The translations under genes and the position numbers were made by a program. A DNA stretch of 64,000 nt from Moheibacter sediminis (GTDB taxonomy: Bacteria > Bacteroidota > Bacteroidia > Flavobacteriales > Weeksellaceae). Below the pieces are notes generated by a model, which was not told the origin of the DNA, did no database searches, and saw only the letters and a program-made list of their open reading frames with translations. Below, piece by piece: positions 21,198 to 64,000 of the stretch. How positions within the stretch are numbered: position 1 is the first letter of the stretch; the number at the start of each line of letters is the position of its first letter. Location: contig NZ_FWXS01000002.1 in assembly GCF_900176425.1 (NCBI RefSeq), positions 310,001 to 374,000 on the forward strand. Reading direction: 5' to 3'.

Positions 21198-21270
21198 GAC
21201 TCGGTAGCTCAGTTGGTAGAGCACAACACTTTTAATGTTGGGGTCCTGGGTTCGAGCCCCAGCCGGGTCA
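21198..21270 (+). tRNA. tRNA-Lys (anticodon TTT)
   Basis: 73 nt. Acceptor arms GACTCGG/CCGGGTC pair with one G-U. The D-arm is GCTC-AGTTGGTA-GAGC. The anticodon stem CAACA/TGTTG encloses CTTTTAA, giving anticodon TTT. The T-arm is CTGGG-TTCGAGC-CCCAG. Discriminator base is A and CCA is not encoded. Identical to the copy at 21352-21424. Confidence 0.97.
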
Positions 21271-21275
21271 CTAAG

Positions 21276-21351: not shown

Positions 21352-21424
21352 GACTCGGTAGCTCAGTTGGTAGAGCACAACACTTTTAATGTTGGGGTCC
21401 TGGGTTCGAGCCCCAGCCGGGTCA
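21352..21424 (+). tRNA. tRNA-Lys (anticodon TTT), second identical copy
   Basis: Base-for-base identical to 21198-21270, 81 bp downstream. Flanking sequences differ, including distinct terminators, so the duplication is limited to the tRNA itself or has been kept identical by gene conversion. Confidence 0.97.
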
Positions 21425-21430
21425 CTAAAG

Positions 21431-37159: not shown

Positions 37160-37206
37160 CAAAATCTGTAAGACAAATTCTCTTTTGAAATATTAACGGT
37201 AAATAA

Positions 37207-37290
37207 TAGCCCCGATAGCAGCGACATCCTTTTTTGGCGGTCTGAAAGACAAGACAAAAAAGATACAGCGGATAGCGGGATTGGCTCCTA
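37207..37290. repeat. Structured intergenic element, probable dispersed flavobacterial repeat or RNA motif
   Basis: 84-bp element with nested complementarity: AGCC (37208-37211)/GGCT (37283-37286), CCG/CGG, CTTTTTTG (37229-37236)/CAAAAAAG (37255-37262), and a tip GTCT/AGAC (37240-37250). GATAGC occurs in both halves. I remember near-identical blocks (GCCCCGATAGnAGCGGCATCC ... GATACAGCGGATAGCGGGA) recurring between genes in many flavobacteria, which suggests a dispersed element; only one copy is in this window. An Rfam scan, including the Flavo-1 family, would decide. Confidence 0.6.
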
Positions 37291-56565: not shown

Positions 56566-57150
56566 TTATAATCTTTGACTCAATACTTTTTCTATTTCTT
56601 GGAAACCCATATTTTTTGATTTTAATAAAATTAAAAAATGATATAATAAATCTGCCGCTTCATTTTTAAATAAATCATCATTATTATCTTTGGCCTCAAT
56701 TATCAATTCGACTGCTTCTTCCCCAACTTTCTGCGCAACTTTATTAATGCCTTTTTGATACAATTCATTGGTGTAAGAGTTTTTGGTGTTTTCATCGATT
56801 CGTTGATTGATGATTTCCTCCAGACGATACAAAAAGCCATTAGAAGTATCGTTGCAAAAACATGATACTGCGCCTGTATGACAAGTCGGACCTTCTTGTT
56901 TAACTTGAATAAGCAGTGCATCGTTGTCACAATCTATATGGATTTTTTTAACCCATAAAAAATTGCCCGAAGTTTCACCCTTTGTCCATAAACGATTTTT
57001 CGTGCGGCTAAAAAAAGTAACTTTTTCTTCTTTTAATGTTTTCAGGTAAGCATCCTCATTCATATAGCCCATCATCAATACCTGAAGACTTTTTTCAGCT
57101 TGTATGATTACCGGAACCAATCCATTTGCTTTGTTAAAATCTATATTCAT
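56566..57150 (-). CDS. hisIE: Bifunctional phosphoribosyl-AMP cyclohydrolase/phosphoribosyl-ATP pyrophosphatase
   Basis: 194 residues, a fusion of HisI (1-about 105) and HisE (about 115-194). The cyclohydrolase zinc site is CDNDALLIQVKQEGPTCHTG, following FFSRTKNRLWTKGETSGN. The HisE helices hold KVGEEAVELIIEAKDNND and EAADLLYHFLILLK. It performs steps 2 and 3 of histidine synthesis. Start overlaps the hisF stop by 4 bp. It ends the operon. Confidence 0.97.
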   Translation of the reverse strand: MNIDFNKANGLVPVIIQAEKSLQVLMMGYMNEDAYLKTLKEEKVTFFSRTKNRLWTKGETSGNFLWVKKIHIDCDNDALLIQVKQEGPTCHTGAVSCFCNDTSNGFLYRLEEIINQRIDENTKNSYTNELYQKGINKVAQKVGEEAVELIIEAKDNNDDLFKNEAADLLYHFLILLKSKNMGFQEIEKVLSQRL

Positions 57151-57902
57151 ATTCTTACCGGGATGTTTTGTTTGTTTAAAAATTCTTTGAGTTCGGGTAT
57201 TGGAATTTGTCCAAAGTGAAAAACACTTGCAGCCAAAGCTCCTGTCGCTTTGCTCTTTTCAAATACCTCTGCAAAATCTTGCTTCTTCCCTGCTCCACCT
57301 GAGGCAATGACGGGAACCGAAACCTTCTCTGAAACCTGTTGAGTAATTTCTAAAGCAAATCCGGATTGCGTTCCATCATTGTTCATCGATGTCAATAAGA
57401 TTTCTCCCGCACCCAGTTCAACTCCTTTTTCAGCCCATTCCAAAGCATTTAATTGGGTATTAACATTTCCTCCATTTCTGAAAACAATCCATTGATTGTC
57501 AACAAATTTTGTGTCGATTGCGAGAACTACGCATTGGCTTCCAAATTCATTTACAATTTCTGCAATGAGCTTAGGATTTTGAATAGCAGAAGAATTGATA
57601 CTGATTTTATCAGCACCGGAATTAATAATCATTTTCGCATCTTCAAGAGAATTAATTCCCCCACCGACGGTAAAGGGAATATTGATTTCCGAAGCAATTT
57701 CACTCACCAATTCACATAAAATTTTTCGTTTCTCTAATGTGGCAGTAATGTCCAAAAAAACCAATTCGTCTGCTCCTTCTTTTACATATCGTTGAGCCAA
57801 TTCAATCGGATCTCCAGCGTCTTTTATTCCTTCAAAATTAATTCCCTTGACGACTCTCCCGTTTTTTATATCTAAACAAGGAATGATTCTTTTCTTTAAC
57901 AT
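57147..57902 (-). CDS. hisF: Imidazole glycerol phosphate synthase, cyclase subunit
   Basis: 251 residues. The TIM barrel opens [20 protein letters not shown], with catalytic Asp residues in CLDI and [13 protein letters not shown], and phosphate loops [12 protein letters not shown] and [14 protein letters not shown]. It works with HisH. Overlaps hisA by 7 bp. Confidence 0.97.
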
Positions 57903-58609
57903 AATTCGATTAATTCTTTGAGATTAATTGTTCCTTCATAAATTGCTTTACCAATGATTGCGCCTTCACACCCTAAGCTTTTTAATACATTCAGATCTTC
58001 TATTGTTGTAATTCCACCGCTTGCGATGAGGAAAATTTGGGTGTCAAATAAAATTTCTTTGTATAATTCTACAGAAGGACCGGAAAGCATTCCATCTTTT
58101 TCAATATCAGTGACAATACAGTATTTTATTTTATTTTTCTCATATTCCTGAATAAAATCAATTACATCCAAATCATTACTTTCAAGCCAGCCATGGGTTG
58201 CGATTTTTCTGTTCTTGCAATCAGCTCCTAAAATTATTTTATCTGTGCTAAATTGATTTATCCATTCTATCATCAATTCAGGATTTTGAACTGCAATGCT
58301 CCCTACCGTTATTTGTTTTGCCCCTGCATTAAAAGCAATTTCCACATCATTCAGAGATTTAATTCCTCCACCGAAATCTATTTGCAAATCAGTTTTGGAA
58401 GCCAAATTTTCTAAAACTTTTTGATTAATGATTTGCTTCGATTTGGCTCCATCCAAATCCACCAGATGCAGATATTTAATTCCAAAATCCTCAAACATTT
58501 TGGCTACTTCGAGTGGATTTTCATTATATATTTTTTGTGTTTTGTAATCACCTTTGGTCAAACGGACGCATTTTCCGTTGATGATATCTATTGCGGGAAT
58601 AATTCTCAT
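57896..58609 (-). CDS. hisA: Phosphoribosylformimino-5-aminoimidazole carboxamide ribotide isomerase
   Basis: 237 residues. [22 protein letters not shown], with the catalytic Asp in PAID and [11 protein letters not shown], phosphate loops [11 protein letters not shown] and [12 protein letters not shown], and [14 protein letters not shown]. It isomerises ProFAR in step 4. Overlaps hisH by 4 bp. Confidence 0.97.
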
Positions 58610-59184
58610 AATTGTAGAAAGTTTTTTAAAATTTGAAGTCCATTGTCTGCTGATTTTTCGGGGTGAAATTGCGTCGCATAAAAATTATCTTTTTGCAAAG
58701 CCGCACTGAACGTCAAAATATAATCTGTAAAAGCAGTAGAATTTTCACAGATTTCGGCATAATAACTGTGAACAAAATAGCAGTCATCTTCCAAGTTTAC
58801 GTTTTGAAATAATTCTCCATTGAGAAAGCTGAAATTATTCCAACCCATATGAGGAACGAGATTTTCAGTCGGAAACTTTTTAACTTTCGTTTTAAAGATT
58901 CCCAATCCTTTGGTATCTCCCTCTTCTGAATGTTCACACAAAAGCTGCATGCCCAAACAAATTCCCAAAACTGGATTTTGGAGAGATTTAATCACTTCAT
59001 CAATTCCTCTTTCTTTCAGATATTTCATGGCTGAAGCAGCTTCACCAACTCCCGGAAAAATCACTTTATCAGCTGATTTCAATAGTTTATCATCATCTGT
59101 TATGATTACTTCATAACCTAATTTTCTTACCGCATTTTCTACAGATTTCACATTTCCGGCATTGTATTTTAAAATGGCTATCAT
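58606..59184 (-). CDS. hisH: Imidazole glycerol phosphate synthase, glutaminase subunit
   Basis: 192 residues. Class I amidotransferase: nucleophile Cys in [18 protein letters not shown], oxyanion region [11 protein letters not shown], and His/Glu in [14 protein letters not shown]. It supplies ammonia to HisF. Overlaps hisB by 4 bp. Confidence 0.97.
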
Positions 59185-60272
59185 ATTATTCCTTTGGTAC
59201 TTGGGATGTTGTAATTTTCGGTTTTAGTGACAGCCATTTTAATGGCTTTTGCAAATGCTTTGAATATAGATTCTATTTTATGGTGCTCATTTTTACCTTC
59301 TGCTTTGATGTTCAAATTGCATTGTGCCTGATCACTAAAAGATTTGAAGAAATGAAAAAACATTTCTGTGGGCACATCCCCGATTTTTTCTCGCTTGAAA
59401 TCTACATCCCAAACAATCCAAGGACGTCCTCCAAAATCAAGTGCTACCTGCGCCAAACAATCATCCATCGGCAATAAAAACCCATAACGTTCGATTGCTT
59501 TTTTACTTCCTAAAGCCTGTAAAAAAGCATCTCCAAGTGCGAGTGCAGCATCTTCAACCGTGTGGTGTTCATCAATTTCCAAATCACCTTTTACTCTGAT
59601 ATTTAAATCCATATTTCCATGTTTAGAGATTTGTTCCAGCATGTGATCGAAAAATGGCAATCCGGTATCAATTGATGAATTTCCGTTTCCGTCTAAATTA
59701 ATTTCTACCGAAATATCTGTTTCCAAGGTTTTTCGTTTTTTAATTCCAATTCTTGGCAAAGCTTTTAAATGTTGATAGATTTCACTCCAATCCAGTGAAG
59801 TAAATGTTGCATCTGCAAGAAGCTCTTTATTGATAAGTATAGATTTAGTCCCAAGATTTTCAGCCAGTTGCATATCAGTTTTCCGATCACCAATTACATA
59901 AGAATTTTCCAAATCATAATCTCCGTAAATGTATTTTCCGAGCATCGAAATTCCGGGTTTTCTGGTTGGTTTGTTTTCATGTTCGAACGATGCATCAATA
60001 TAAATCTCAGAAAAGACAACACCTTCATTTTTTAAAGTTTCCAGAATGAAATTTTGCACCGGATGAAAAGTGTTTTCCGGAAACGAATCGGTTCCCAATC
60101 CATCTTGGTTGGTAACCATCACCAATTCAAAATCTAGTTCTTTGGAGATTTTGGACAGGTTACTAATCACTAGCGGGAGAAATTCCAGTTTTTCAAAACT
60201 GTCAATTTGAAAATCTTCAGGTTCTTTGATGATGGTACCGTCACGGTCTATGAATAATACTTTTTTAGCCAT
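59181..60272 (-). CDS. hisB: Bifunctional histidinol-phosphatase/imidazoleglycerol-phosphate dehydratase
   Basis: 363 residues from ATG 60272 ([13 protein letters not shown]); an alternative TTG two codons upstream adds only MT. The N-terminal HAD phosphatase (1-about 165) has [14 protein letters not shown] with the nucleophile Asp, VTNQDGLGT and [12 protein letters not shown]. The C-terminal dehydratase has [33 protein letters not shown] and [14 protein letters not shown], the metal-binding His repeats. Two steps in one chain, as in many Bacteroidota and enterobacteria. Overlaps hisC by 8 bp. Confidence 0.97.
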
Positions 60273-61302
60273 TGTCAATTACTTTTAACTCGGTTATTAA
60301 TTTTTGATTTTCTTCAGGAGTTCCTACTGTAATCCGTAAACATTTTGGTATTACAGAATTTCTGTTTCGAATTATGATTTGTTTTTCAATTAATTTTTTG
60401 TACAATTCATCTGCATTTTTCACTTCCATCAAAATAAAATTAGCATCCGTCGGATAAACCTTTTTCACTAAATTCAAATGGTTTAATTCATTTATCAGTT
60501 TCGTTCTTTCAAATAAAATTTCATTTAATTTTGAATTAAATTCTTCCTGCTGATTTAAATATTTCAAAGTCATTTCCTGATTGATTGAACTGATGTTGTA
60601 AGGAGATTTCACTTTATTGTAAAAAGCCAGAATTTCCTCATTCATATAAGCAACTCCTAATCGGATTCCCGCCAATCCCCAGGCTTTGCTGAGTGTTTGG
60701 CTCACTATCAGATTAGGATAAATATTTAATTTTTCAATGAAAGAATTTTGCGCTGCAAAATCAATATAAGCTTCATCGATTATTACAATTCCACTAAATT
60801 TTTGCAAAATGAATTCGATATCGTCCGTGTTCAAAAGATTGCCCGTGGGATTATTGGGCGAACAAATGAAAATCAATTTCAGGTTTTCATCTTTTAAACA
60901 ATTCTCTACAGTTTTTCTATCAATCTGAAAATTTTTATTCAAAGGAATCTGAATTAATTCCACTGCATTGATGTCTGCAGAAACCTGATACATACCATAG
61001 GTCGGAGCGAAAGTAAGTGCCGTGTCCTGATAAGGTTCACAAAAAATACGAAATGCCAAATCAATCACTTCATCACTTCCGTTTCCTATAAAAATCTGAT
61101 TGGATTTACATTTTTTTATCTCAGCTAATTTCTGTTTTAATTGGTTTTGATAAGGATCCGGATAACGATTGTAAATCCCGTAGGGGTTTTCATTTGCATC
61201 TAAAAAAATCCCCTCTTTCCCAACATATTCTTCTCTTGCACTTGAATAAGGAGAAAGTTCAAAAATATTTTTTCTGAGCAATCGTTTGATTTTACTATTC
61301 AT
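60265..61302 (-). CDS. hisC: Histidinol-phosphate aminotransferase
   Basis: 345 residues. PLP fold type I: the lysine in [31 protein letters not shown] at the N-terminus, [28 protein letters not shown] and [11 protein letters not shown]. It transaminates imidazole-acetol phosphate. Overlaps hisD by 8 bp. Confidence 0.97.
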
Positions 61303-62584
61303 TATTTATCTTTTTTAATCGAATTGAAACTGCATTTTTATGAGCTAATAATTGTTCTGCTTCTGCCATCACTTCGATAGTTTGTCCAATACTTTGAAGT
61401 CCTTCTTTTGTGATTTTTTGAAATGTAATTTTCTTCACAAAACTATCCAGAGAAACACCACTATGGCTTTTCGCATAACCATTTGTAGGAAGCGTGTGAT
61501 TGGTTCCGCTTGCGTAATCTCCAGCACTTTCGCAAGTATAATTTCCGAGGAAAACAGATCCTGCATTTTGTATTTGAGCAATGTAATTTTCAGCGTTTTC
61601 AATTGCTAAAATCAAATGCTCAGGAGCATATAAATTACTGAATTCAAAACATCTGTCAATTGAATCAAACACAACTACAAAACTATTTTCAATTGCTTTT
61701 TGTGCAATATTTTCTCGGGGTAAAATTTTCAATTGCCCGTTTAATGAATACTTAATTTTTTCAGGCATCGAAATGTCATCGGTTAATAAAATCACCTGAC
61801 TATCAGCTCCATGTTCTGCCTGAGAAAGTAAATCGGAAGCAATAAAATCTGCATCAGCATTTTCATCTGCAATCACTAAAACTTCGCTCGGTCCCGCAGG
61901 TAAGTCGATTGCAATCCCGTTTTTTTGTACCAATTCTTTTGCTTTGGTTACATACTGGTTTCCCGGACCGAATATTTTGTCAACTTTAGGAATGCATTCT
62001 GTTCCGTAAGCCATCGCTGCGATGGCTTGAGCTCCTCCAATTTTATAAATTTCTGTGATTCCTAAATTTGTTGCTGTGTATAAAATTGCAGGATTGATTT
62101 GTCCATTTTCGTCACATGGGGTGCAGAGAATGATTCTTTTACAACCTGCAATCTGGGCCGGAATCCCCAACATCAAAATTGTTGAAAATAGTGGAGCTGA
62201 ACCTCCGGGAATGTATAATCCTACATTTTCTATGGGTACAGATTTTCTCCAGCAACTTACGCCTTTCATCGTTTCAACTGATAATTCTGAATTTATTTGG
62301 GATAAATGAAATTTTTTAATATTTGCCGCTGCTATTGAAATTGCAGTTTTGAGTTCAGAATAAATTTTCCCTGATGCTGATTCAATTTCTGTTTGAGATA
62401 CTATTAAGTTTTCGAGATTTACTTTATCAAATTTCAATGCAAAATTTTTTAAGGCTTTGTCTCCACTTATTTTAACTTCATCAATTATTTGTTTAACTAA
62501 TTCTTCTAAGTTTTCTGAATCTAGAACTGGTCTTTTTACCAAATTATCCCATTCGGACTGAGGTGGATTTTTATATAATTTCAT
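61295..62584 (-). CDS. hisD: Histidinol dehydrogenase
   Basis: 429 residues. Zinc-dependent dehydrogenase motifs: VGLYIPGGSAPLFSTILMLG, KIFGPGNQYVTKAKELV, LPAGPSEVLVIADE, DLLSQAEHGADSQ, ASGTNHTLPTNGYAK. It oxidises histidinol twice to histidine. Preceded by a 17-bp gap after hisG. Confidence 0.97.
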   Translation of the reverse strand: MKLYKNPPQSEWDNLVKRPVLDSENLEELVKQIIDEVKISGDKALKNFALKFDKVNLENLIVSQTEIESASGKIYSELKTAISIAAANIKKFHLSQINSELSVETMKGVSCWRKSVPIENVGLYIPGGSAPLFSTILMLGIPAQIAGCKRIILCTPCDENGQINPAILYTATNLGITEIYKIGGAQAIAAMAYGTECIPKVDKIFGPGNQYVTKAKELVQKNGIAIDLPAGPSEVLVIADENADADFIASDLLSQAEHGADSQVILLTDDISMPEKIKYSLNGQLKILPRENIAQKAIENSFVVVFDSIDRCFEFSNLYAPEHLILAIENAENYIAQIQNAGSVFLGNYTCESAGDYASGTNHTLPTNGYAKSHSGVSLDSFVKKITFQKITKEGLQSIGQTIEVMAEAEQLLAHKNAVSIRLKKINNE

Positions 62585-62601: not shown

Positions 62602-63459
62602 TTAAACAATCATTTTTTCGATTGGCACAACAAGAATCCCTTGCGCACCAGCCTCTTTTAGCTCGTCAATTACATCCCAAAATTTATCTTCACTGATTAC
62701 AGAATGTAAACTGCTCCAACCTTCTTGAGCCAAAGGAAGAATCGTAGGGCTGTTCATTCCCGGAAGAATTTTTTTAATTTTTTCTAATTTTTCATCCGGA
62801 GCATTGAGAAGTATGTATTTGTTTTCTTTTGCATTTCTGACGGAGCGGATTCGGAATAATAATTTCTCCAGAATTTGTTGTTTATTTACTTCTAAATCCG
62901 GGTTAGCAACCAAAATCGCCTGACTATCCATTACTTTTACGACTTCCTTCAATCCGTTTGAAAGCAAAGTACTTCCACTGCTTACGATATCACAAATTCC
63001 ATCAGAAAGACCAATTCCCGGAGCAATTTCAACACTTCCGGATATGATTTCAATGTTTGTGTGGATGTCATTATTTCGAAAAAAACCTGATAAGATATTT
63101 GGATAAGAAGTGGCAACGCGTTTGTTGTTGAAAAAACTTAGTCCTTGGTAATCAACATCCTTCGAAACAGCTAAACTTAGACGGCAGGCAGAAAATCCTA
63201 GTTTTTCAATTGAATTAATGTTTTTTAGACTTTCTGCAAATACATTTTCGCCTATGATTCCTATGTCAGCTACCTTTTGTTCCACATATTGAGGTATGTC
63301 ATCGTCTCTCAGAAAGAGTATTTCCAATGGAAAATTGGTAGATTCTGTAATTAATTTCCCACCGCCATTTGGGAATTTAATTCCGCATTCTTCTAATAAT
63401 TTGATTGATTTTTCGCTAAGCCTGCCATTTTTTTGAAGGGCAATTTTCAGTTTACTCAT
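62602..63459 (-). CDS. hisG: ATP phosphoribosyltransferase, long form
   Basis: 285 residues, so it includes the C-terminal ACT-like regulatory domain (LEKIKKILPGMNSPTILPL, WDVIDELKEAGAQGILV) that binds histidine for feedback inhibition. N-terminal catalytic part: MSKLKIALQKNGRLSEKS, FLRDDDIPQYVEQKVADIGIIG, and the PRPP-binding DGICDIVSSGSTLLSNGL. First committed enzyme of the pathway and first gene of hisG-D-C-B-H-A-F-IE. Its leader carries the attenuator described at 63502-63621. Confidence 0.97.
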   Translation of the reverse strand: MSKLKIALQKNGRLSEKSIKLLEECGIKFPNGGGKLITESTNFPLEILFLRDDDIPQYVEQKVADIGIIGENVFAESLKNINSIEKLGFSACRLSLAVSKDVDYQGLSFFNNKRVATSYPNILSGFFRNNDIHTNIEIISGSVEIAPGIGLSDGICDIVSSGSTLLSNGLKEVVKVMDSQAILVANPDLEVNKQQILEKLLFRIRSVRNAKENKYILLNAPDEKLEKIKKILPGMNSPTILPLAQEGWSSLHSVISEDKFWDVIDELKEAGAQGILVVPIEKMIV

Positions 63460-63501
63460 TGTTTTTTAATTAAATGTCTGAGTAAATCTGTGAAAAGTCT
63501 T

Positions 63502-63538
63502 AAAAGAAAAATCCCGTTTGATTTACTCAAACGGGATT
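63502..63538 (-). terminator. Attenuator terminator upstream of hisG
   Basis: Perfect 12-bp stem AATCCCGTTTGA/TCAAACGGGATT (63510-63521 with 63527-63538, 5-nt loop). On the minus strand it is followed by TTTTCTTTT. It is placed 30 bp after the leader peptide stop and 42 bp before the hisG ATG, as an attenuator requires. Confidence 0.88.
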
Positions 63539-63567
63539 AGATATTTTGAAGTTACAGCATATCCTTA

Positions 63568-63621
63568 TCAGCTCGCTTGAGGGCAAGTATGAAAATGATG
63601 ATGATGTAATTGAATTGACAT
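63568..63621 (-). CDS. hisL: His operon leader peptide
   Basis: Seventeen codons on the minus strand: MSIQLHHHHFHTCPQAS then TGA. Four consecutive His codons plus a fifth after Phe is far beyond chance in such a short frame. It is followed by a small stem at 63572-63587 (CTTGC/GCGAG on the minus strand) and by the terminator above. Ribosome stalling at the His codons when charged tRNA-His is scarce would favour read-through into hisG. The antiterminator pairing is not obvious by eye. Confidence 0.85.
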   Translation of the reverse strand: MSIQLHHHHFHTCPQAS

Positions 63622-63644
63622 TTTTTTGTGTTTTTTAACCAGCA

Positions 63645-63676
63645 CAAATTTATAGTTTATATTTTAATATGTGCAA
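63645..63676 (-). promoter_or_regulatory. Promoter of the his operon
   Basis: On the minus strand TTG (63676-63674) and TAAATTTG (63652-63645) are spaced by 21 bp, an exact fit to the Bacteroidota sigma-A pattern. The leader peptide ATG is 23 bp downstream of the -7 box. Confidence 0.78.
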
Positions 63677-63742
63677 TTAATTTATAATAAAAAAAAATCG
63701 GACCAAAAAAACTGATTAATCTATTTCAGTCATTTTTTTGAA

Positions 63743-64000
63743 TTATTCTATCTCAATCCCATATCTATAAAGCAATCCTGCCACTCCATGGATAGAAAAT
63801 TTAGCATATTTAATCTTGTTGCTTTCCGGATGGATTGAATAATTCTGAGCTGTTCTGAAATCGGATTTTTCCAAAGAAGTATTCTCAAAAATTGCTTCAG
63901 ATAGATTAGAATTGTCAAAGACAGACTGATTCAAATTACAATTAGAAAAATCAACTTCTTTCAATTCTGAATTTCGAAAAATTGTTTTTGGAATTTGTAA
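63743..64000 (-). CDS. Pentapeptide-repeat protein, N-terminus cut by window edge
   Basis: The frame stays open through the right edge, reading LQIPKTIFRNSELKEVDFSN. The pentapeptide A(D/N)Lxx pattern is visible in VDFSNCNLNQSVFDNSNLSEAIFENTSLEKSDF, followed by the C-terminal cap AQNYSIHPESNKIKYAKFS. A TTG inside the frame at 63964 is not the real start. Proteins like this form right-handed beta-helices; those with the IHPESNKIKKAKFS-type ending resemble the quinolone-resistance Qnr/McbG-like relatives, but function here is open. Confidence 0.8.
   Translation of the reverse strand, partial: LQIPKTIFRNSELKEVDFSNCNLNQSVFDNSNLSEAIFENTSLEKSDFRTAQNYSIHPESNKIKYAKFSIHGVAGLLYRYGIEIE

Follow-up and report, generated by a model that had tools for sequence, protein, structure and literature searches.

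A probable ribosome-mediated attenuator of the histidine operon in Moheibacter sediminis, with an additional arm beyond its terminator

The histidine operon of Moheibacter sediminis is very probably controlled by a ribosome-mediated transcription attenuator that carries an extra arm after its terminator. The element lies in the window analysed here, a 64,000-nt stretch of contig NZ_FWXS01000002.1 (positions 310,001 to 374,000), and its features are all on the minus strand; its parts, their conservation, their covariation and the logic of their folding rest on sequence and computation. A first-pass annotation of this DNA had described a promoter, a 17-codon His-rich reading frame, a small stem at its stop codon and a 12-bp terminator with a T run before hisG, all of which are present where it placed them. 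Its further proposal, that a His leader peptide and attenuator control his, is supported by the conservation, the compensatory changes and the fold logic set out below.

The operon downstream of the leader is complete and runs hisG-D-C-B(bifunctional)-H-A-F-IE, which is also the gene order of E. coli. Its first gene, hisG (62602–63459, ATG at 63459), scores 176.9 bits against TIGR00070 (cut-off 75.75) and its product is 45% identical to E. coli HisG; hisD, hisC, the bifunctional hisB, hisH, hisA, hisF and hisIE occupy 56566–62584, each scoring above an NCBIfam cut-off. The 12-bp terminator hairpin (63510–63538) is formed by segment 3 (63538–63527), a GUAAA loop and segment 4 (63521–63510), with a U-tract evident in the sequence at 63502–63510, and 50 nt separate the terminator stem from the hisG start. 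A scan of 63400–63900 finds one terminator-like place, listed once per strand (2 found, 0.1 expected from shuffles), and the leader RNA from 63645 to 63490 folds better than all 200 of its shuffles (z −3.6). Pairing of segments 3 and 4 (3:4) is kept in 94.5% of cells in an alignment of 54 leaders (A1) and in 91.5% in an alignment of 84 leaders made with MAFFT.

Upstream of the leader is a promoter of the Bacteroidota type (63645–63676), with TTGCAC at 63676–63671 and a −7 box, TAAATTTG, at 63652–63645. In Flavobacterium johnsoniae the −7 element has the form TAHHTTTG and lies 4–5 nt from the start site (PMC6847099), and transcription in the window would start near 63640, about 18 nt upstream of the leader ATG. 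Of 110 leaders, 88 have a TAnnTTTG box in the 60 nt preceding their ATG, compared with 4.6% of shuffled regions, and the median distance between box and ATG is 18 nt. The leader ORF (63568–63621, ATG at 63621, stop codon UGA ending at 63568) encodes the peptide MSIQLHHHHFHTCPQAS in 17 codons, and its control codons CAU CAU CAU CAU UUU CAU occupy 63589–63606. No other short ORF starting with ATG in the 64 kb has four or more His within eight codons. Across the 112 leaders kept for comparison the number of His codons ranges from 3 to 9, bounded from below by preselection for at least three, with totals of 459 CAU and 53 CAC.

The leader is predicted to be translated from a start of the kind found elsewhere in these bacteria. 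None of the 112 leaders has GGAG, GAGG or AGGA before its ATG, and 11 of the 112 hisG genes have one; the 14 nt preceding the leader ATG are 42–76% A, depending on position. Initiation regions in F. johnsoniae are likewise A-rich and less structured (PMC6847099). The predicted start context of the leader is the A-rich, Shine-Dalgarno-less one that is usual for the phylum. The first-pass annotation had noted that Shine-Dalgarno sequences are absent, and this holds for all 112 leaders; its further statement that stalling and ribosome–polymerase coupling must therefore differ from E. coli does not follow, since Shine-Dalgarno sequences concern initiation, and nothing was found that suggests a special stalling mechanism.

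Stalling, termination and a starvation response in vivo would presumably proceed as follows. Once transcription has begun some 18 nt upstream, a ribosome would enter the 17-codon leader without the help of a Shine-Dalgarno sequence. When His-tRNA is ample, it would run on to the stop codon and there cover segment 2 (CUCAAGCG), whereupon segments 3 and 4 would form the terminator and transcription would end before hisG. When His-tRNA is scarce, it would stall on the His codons and leave segment 2 free, and this could pair with segment 3 (CGUUUGAG) while segment 4 was still untranscribed; the resulting 2:3 helix would pre-empt the terminator, and the operon would be transcribed. In the read-through RNA, segment 5 would offer a third partner for segment 3 and the loop. 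As a possible second tier, an antiterminator still holding segment 3 would keep the stretch before hisG open to ribosomes, whereas a segment 3 not so held would form a 3:5 hairpin that borders the initiation region and reduces the translation of hisG.

Conservation of the leader was examined in two samples. The first comprised 111 hisG loci, being the window's own, the best 30 of a family sample and the best 80 among named genomes, a set biased towards close HisG sequences and partly made of near-copies. To count as a leader, an ORF had to be no longer than 40 codons, to contain three or more His within eight codons and to lie no more than 450 nt upstream of hisG. Such an ORF precedes hisG at 100 of the 107 loci at which the hisG start was located (it was not located at 4 of the 111), although in at least two cases (L064 and L098) the ORF is probably a chance match. 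Typical leader peptides of the relatives are MFNQLHHHHFHTCTQAS, MYTTTSHHHSHTCSQAR and MKFTSLHHHHHHSCTQASWS. The leader at one locus (L003), MYTVQFHHHHHH, is similar to MTRVQFKHHHHHHH.

The second sample covered the phylum with 148 genomes, of which 128 have hisG, all of them read; 59 of the 128 carry a His-rich ORF upstream of the gene. In the sampled families of the window's own class (f1–f9) the leader is present in 32 of 33 hisG-bearing genomes, the f9 case being G+C-rich, without a terminator and possibly a chance match. The logic of amino-acid attenuation is thus predicted in a class that initiates without Shine-Dalgarno sequences. Family f14 has the leader in 12 of 12 genomes and f21 in 12 of 18, with different peptides in both, and it is found in 1 of 4 genomes of f19, 1 of 1 of f22 and 1 of 2 of f27. 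No His-rich ORF was found upstream of hisG in the 30 genomes of f15, nor in the 28 of f10–f13, f16–f18, f23, f24, f26, f28, f29 and f33 together, and these leaderless families serve also as a background rate for the leader search. Conservation of the His codons in related genomes, which the first-pass annotation had proposed as a check, is seen among relatives in both samples.

The five leaders of f3 and the twelve of f21 have no terminator scoring at least 30, and must therefore work by another route. These leaders (for example L150, L182 and L144) have many His codons (VNRKNLHTTHLHHGVHHLHQGHHHA and similar) and no clear intrinsic terminator; control of his in these families may be translational or Rho-dependent. 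Altogether 158 leaders were collected, from which 21 without a terminator scoring at least 30 and 25 near-copies were removed to give the 112 analysed. A covariance model running from leader to terminator (R1), which has only 9 base pairs and was kept out of all counts, has matches at E ≤ 0.01, many of them weak, in 50 of 148 genomes of the class; among eight of its loci that were checked, five have hisG, four of these with a His-rich ORF, and three have no hisG.

According to the first-pass annotation the usual antiterminator was not obvious. An antiterminator does exist, formed by CUCAAGCG at the end of the leader ORF (segment 2, 63574–63581, the last leader codons) and CGUUUGAG in the 5′ arm of the terminator (63533–63526). 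Most of the 112 leaders share this arrangement, with final codons CUCARGCG pairing with CGUYUGAG of the terminator 5′ arm. In A1, which holds 54 of the 112 leaders, hand-picked with distant families left out and aligned regardless of structure, 95.1% of 2:3 cells are paired, falling to 24–48% when the partner is slid. The structure-blind MAFFT alignment, made of the 84 leaders of the 112 with at least 38 nt past the terminator, gives 88.6%, and 23–52% when slid. Three leaders (L034, L036 and L039) have two mismatches each in this helix.

Compensatory changes in the stems, which the first-pass annotation had proposed as a check, are found in the 54-, 75- and 84-leader alignments. Those in the 2:3 helix are confined to a single pair, at which G-C is replaced by A-U in 15 of the 54 leaders (5.9 cells in shuffles); one pair with changes on both sides compares with 1.3 in shuffles, and the segment 3 base concerned changes in step with the bases it faces in segments 4 and 5 as well. 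More distant leaders (L112, L121, L154 and L160) have unrelated terminator sequences, and their segment 2 is altered to match, with energies of −20 to −30 kcal/mol. Over all 112 leaders the mean 2:3 pairing energy is −14.7 for a leader's own arms, −11.7 for swapped arms and −8.6 for shuffled ones, the own arms lying within the best tenth of swaps in just 39 leaders. In the window itself, the pairing of segment 2 with segment 3 is equalled by 41 of 2000 shuffled sequences. The leader peptides end in a conserved motif, TC-QA-S/R, which is probably accounted for by the 2:3 RNA pairing and not by a function of the peptide.

The stem at the stop codon (1:2) is formed by segment 1, CUUGC (63583–63587), and GCGAG at 63576–63572. 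It has 5 bp, and in the 54 leaders 85.9% of its cells are paired; one of the five pairs is broken in 10 of these leaders and another in 13. A candidate helper or pause stem located after the leader stop and ahead of the terminator, GGAUAU:AUAUCU in the window, was not adopted, as only 46.3% of its cells pair in the same alignment.

Folding calculations connect these helices with the position of the ribosome. Wherever the ribosome was placed, the complete leader folds at equilibrium into the terminator, which is what a kinetic device should do; such folds cannot reveal an antiterminator, and only a snapshot taken before segment 4 has emerged is informative. The snapshot therefore included segment 3 and the loop with segment 4 untranscribed, and an antiterminator was counted when segment 3 had 6 or more nt paired with upstream sequence. 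The ribosome was given a footprint of 15 nt from the first P-site base, which is a standard value.

In these snapshots the antiterminator that the first-pass annotation had suggested seeking by folding appears when a His codon occupies the A site, in 103 of 112 leaders for the last such codon and in 108 of 112 for the first or a middle one. A ribosome placed on the stop codon allows it in only 7 of 112. Formation at the last His codon together with absence at the stop codon is seen in 96 of the 112 leaders. When the spacer between the His codons and the terminator was shuffled, the figures became 48% at the last His codon and 32% at the stop. In the window, segment 3 has 10 nt paired upstream when the ribosome sits on the last His codon and 5 when it sits on the stop; the number without a ribosome is 11. 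Without a ribosome the antiterminator forms in 50 of the 112 leaders, including the window's, in which 2:3 wins over 1:2. This is a departure from the classical expectation; weak translation of the leader would not reliably lead to termination, and the 1:2 stem looks poor as a protector.

The dependence of the predicted antiterminator on ribosome position in those 96 leaders argues against any reading without attenuation, whether a T-box, a riboswitch, or a chance His-rich ORF beside an ordinary terminator. Nothing was found in favour of this alternative, and the leader has no Rfam match at or above gathering score, leaving the element unmatched; RF00514 has no match at gathering score in the window nor at E ≤ 10 in 63440–63740, and the T-box model has none upstream of his in the Rfam scans of the window. 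We consider it extremely improbable. Sub-threshold Rfam matches (E ≤ 10) were dismissed, these being PyrG_leader (28.9 bits, where 65 are needed), the trpB motif (25.7, where 59 are needed) and 18 others.

The attenuator as described so far follows a known plan; its unexpected part is a conserved fifth arm, which raises the question of why a read-through mRNA needs such a helix. In the window, segment 5, GAUUUACUCAGAC (63476–63488), ends 16 nt upstream of the hisG AUG and pairs with 63532–63520, its partners being the 5′ arm of the terminator, the loop and the first bases of the 3′ arm. The energy of this 3:5 duplex is −18.4 kcal/mol, and none of 2000 shuffles is as low. If pairing at −12 kcal/mol or below is taken as the mark of segment 5, then 70 of the 82 leaders in which terminator and hisG are 40 nt or more apart have it, as does 1 of the 30 with a shorter interval, although two leaders counted by energy (L101 and L154) are doubtful because of their long downstream regions. 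In 66 leaders its distance to the AUG, 17.0 nt (sd 2.9), is steadier than that to the terminator, 21.9 nt (sd 8.4); in this set segment 5 was picked as the best complement, and hence selected, and the 25 of 112 leaders without the segment 3 motif are omitted.

Covariation in the 3:5 helix was assessed in two alignments whose rows were not selected for segment 5, the 84-leader alignment above and A2, which comprises 75 of the 77 leaders with the segment 3 motif and at least 38 nt (L101 and L170 being omitted for length) and includes some leaders without segment 5. In A2, 87.4% of 3:5 cells are paired, and 20–38% when slid; cells changed on both sides number 67 against 24.7 in shuffles (none of 500 as high), and 9 of 13 pairs have changed on both sides, a number reached by 10 of 500 shuffles. 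The corresponding values for the 84 leaders are 84.4% paired, 21–38% when slid, and both-side changes at 10 of 13 pairs in 85 cells, where shuffles average 31 with a maximum of 41. Varied loops (GUAAA, GCAGA, GUACA, GACAA and AACAA) are matched by segment 5. Mean 3:5 pairing energies over the 112 leaders are −12.5 for own arms, −8.9 for swapped and −6.1 for shuffled, the own arms lying within the best tenth of swaps in just 44. Phylogenetically independent pairs on the HisG tree come to 2–6 usable per position among those listed, too few for significance. The region past the terminator folds no better than its shuffles in the window (z +1.3), and in the 84 leaders the mean z is −1.1, with 19 below −2. 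Taken by its sequence record, the 3:5 helix looks selected.

The loop and segment 5 together form an inverted repeat over 13 positions, and might on that account be a DNA site bound by a protein and no RNA element. A DNA palindrome would treat G-U and A-C mismatches alike, whereas in the 3:5 helix G-U cells exceed A-C cells by 105 to 40, a contrast whose significance is overstated as the cells are not independent and A-C outnumbers G-U at 4 of the 13 positions. The same excess is seen in 2:3 (101 to 17) and 3:4 (60 to 14), and in all three helices it points to an RNA transcribed from the minus strand. We regard a DNA site as very unlikely.

Pairing might also occur in trans, the exposed loop of a terminated leader RNA binding segment 5 of the full-length his mRNA and repressing it. 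The complementarity does cover the terminator loop and 5′ arm, and trans-acting products of attenuators are known in Sinorhizobium (PMC7298713). A nearby cis partner in the full-length mRNA should win, however, and leader RNA left over from times of plenty would repress his contrary to need. The comparative data do not separate cis from trans. Pairing in trans seems improbable.

If pairing is in cis, segment 5 can affect only the read-through mRNA, since it is transcribed after the decision on termination. A pseudoknot in which the lower terminator stem persists beside the complete 3:5 helix would be sterically unlikely and was discounted. In the read-through RNA the minimum-energy fold shifts segment 3 to segment 5 in 52 of the 66 leaders that have it. 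This shift depends on further pairs made by segment 4, with which the stretch between terminator and segment 5 pairs in several folds; when segment 4 is left unpaired, 3:5 beats the terminator in just 17 of the 66 (means −14.7 and −16.7). One of the 14 of 66 that keep the terminator is the window, at −17.4 compared with −14.8 for the 3:5 fold.

We consider it quite possible, if somewhat short of an even prospect, that segment 5 provides a translational second tier for hisG. In F. johnsoniae the openness of the zone from −20 to +20 tunes initiation (PMC6847099). The 3:5 helix ends at the upstream edge of this zone and not over it, so that any translational effect may be small. The small number of leaders in which 3:5 alone beats the terminator lowers the odds further, and the fold energies of the window itself call for caution. 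A structural or stabilising role of segment 5 fits nearly as well as the translational one.

Under such a role the element would be a plain attenuator, and the 3:5 helix would form whatever the histidine state, insulating the hisG start or protecting the 5′ end without carrying a regulatory signal. The minimum-energy folds pairing 3 with 5 in those 52 leaders are consistent with this, as is the position of the hairpin: in leaders with fewer than 40 nt after it, the terminator itself lies 9–39 nt before hisG, and the terminators of seven simple trp and ilvD attenuators lie 14–39 nt before their genes, as though the start region were regularly flanked by a hairpin. A mere insulator would have no need to copy the loop sequence, yet loop and segment 5 covary, and the window's own fold favours the terminator. 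We see this role as possible though rather doubtful.

Combining the attenuator with the translational tier gives a three-way switch for his, in which segment 3 is contested by segments 2, 4 and 5 and one stalling signal would set both transcription of the operon and translation of hisG from the messages that read through. This proposal is a tentative one. If true, Flavobacteriales, Bacteroidales and some neighbouring groups would possess a two-tier attenuator that is specific to his and works without Shine-Dalgarno sequences. The his leader would offer a sequence-defined reporter of ribosome stalling and of ribosome–polymerase coupling in these bacteria.

Segment 5 is found in Flavobacteriales and Bacteroidales and at single loci of Cytophagales (L040) and Chitinophagales (L097), a match in Saprospirales (L101) being doubtful. 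On the best HisG tree, a quick one that covers 91 of the 112 leader loci, its presence requires at least 9 state changes, 5 of them forced by well-supported branches, where shuffled states require 24. The window's HisG falls in a clade of eight rows (SH-aLRT 100) with Paenimyroides, Flavobacterium antarcticum, Cryomorpha, Kaistella and a Chryseobacterium, which we take to belong to several families. Only one of six genomes of the window's genus has hisG; the five others (G001–G005) have no match, and three of them are 99% complete. The operon thus seems to have moved between families together with its attenuator.

Other RNA genes and leaders were observed nearby. The window contains tandem tRNA-Lys (UUU) genes of equal score at 21198–21271 and 21352–21425, and a Flavo-1 RNA (RF01705, 64.2 bits) on the plus strand at 37204–37286. 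Elsewhere in the same genome, trpE follows a WWW leader, MRKIILNNNWWWISQLHKS, with a strong terminator 26 nt before the gene (L239, at G000:C14:475097); this is likely a second amino-acid attenuator of the genome, without a fifth segment. Two further trpE loci (L245 in G453 and L247 in G441) have two separate WWW leaders, those of L245 being MITINKIWWWQSKL and MINSKLNNWWWPVLTQYVGQSRYKNI, which suggests tandem trp attenuators.

Attenuation as a kind of control is old, and is textbook for enterobacteria. Amino-acid attenuators have reportedly been extended to some Bacteroidetes/Chlorobi by Vitreschak et al. (2004). Naville and Gautheret knew of demonstrated leader-peptide systems only from Proteobacteria and Actinobacteria, to which they added Firmicutes (PMC2965389), and Korolev et al. 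treated leader genes by distance in Bacteroidetes, naming attenuation of hisG only for gamma-proteobacteria, at least in the accessible text of the paper (PMC4833913). In Flavobacterium psychrophilum there are clues to leader-peptide attenuation of amino-acid operons, in a report whose main text names neither histidine nor the his operon and whose supplements may list a his leader (PMC9723704), and in B. thetaiotaomicron some sORFs are reminiscent of attenuation leader peptides (PMC7366714). No paper dedicated to leader-peptide attenuation of his in Bacteroidetes/Bacteroidota was found in the open-access literature, and no description of a fifth segment was found in the open-access literature searched, most subscription papers lying outside both searches.

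The closest known system is the enterobacterial hisL (RF00514), which likewise has a leader with His codons, an intrinsic terminator before hisG and a competing antiterminator (PMC9413887). The element in the window differs from it in its start without a Shine-Dalgarno sequence, in its sequences and in giving no match to RF00514. The his leader of E. coli K-12 MG1655, MTRVQFKHHHHHHHPD, has its terminator 49 nt before hisG and no segment 5, its best post-terminator pairing being −10.6 compared with −9.5 for shuffles. Predicted His attenuators of Firmicutes (the Bacillus cereus group, Eubacteriales and Erysipelotrichales) share the leader, terminator and antiterminator, and differ in belonging to another phylum and in having no fifth segment in the passages describing them; the main text of that study does not mention 'bacteroid' (PMC9413887). 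Segment 5 is absent from the textbook scheme and makes the predicted element a new variant.

Within the same order, the trp and ilvD leaders resemble that of his in combining a W-rich or I/V-rich leader with a terminator. Twelve trp and eleven ilvD loci were considered, of which two trp loci have no ATG found (L240 and L241) and four have no leader (L242–L244 and L246), one ilvD leader has no terminator (L268), and the ilvD loci other than that one and L263–L265 have no convincing leader. The two trp loci with double leaders (L245 and L247) have a far terminator and post-terminator pairing of −10.8 and −11.5 over 174–186 nt. In the seven simple attenuators (L239, L248–L250 and L263–L265) no segment 5 is found, the corresponding pairing amounting to −0.7 to −3.1 kcal/mol, and this difference makes the his leader, with its additional arm, a natural comparison for them.
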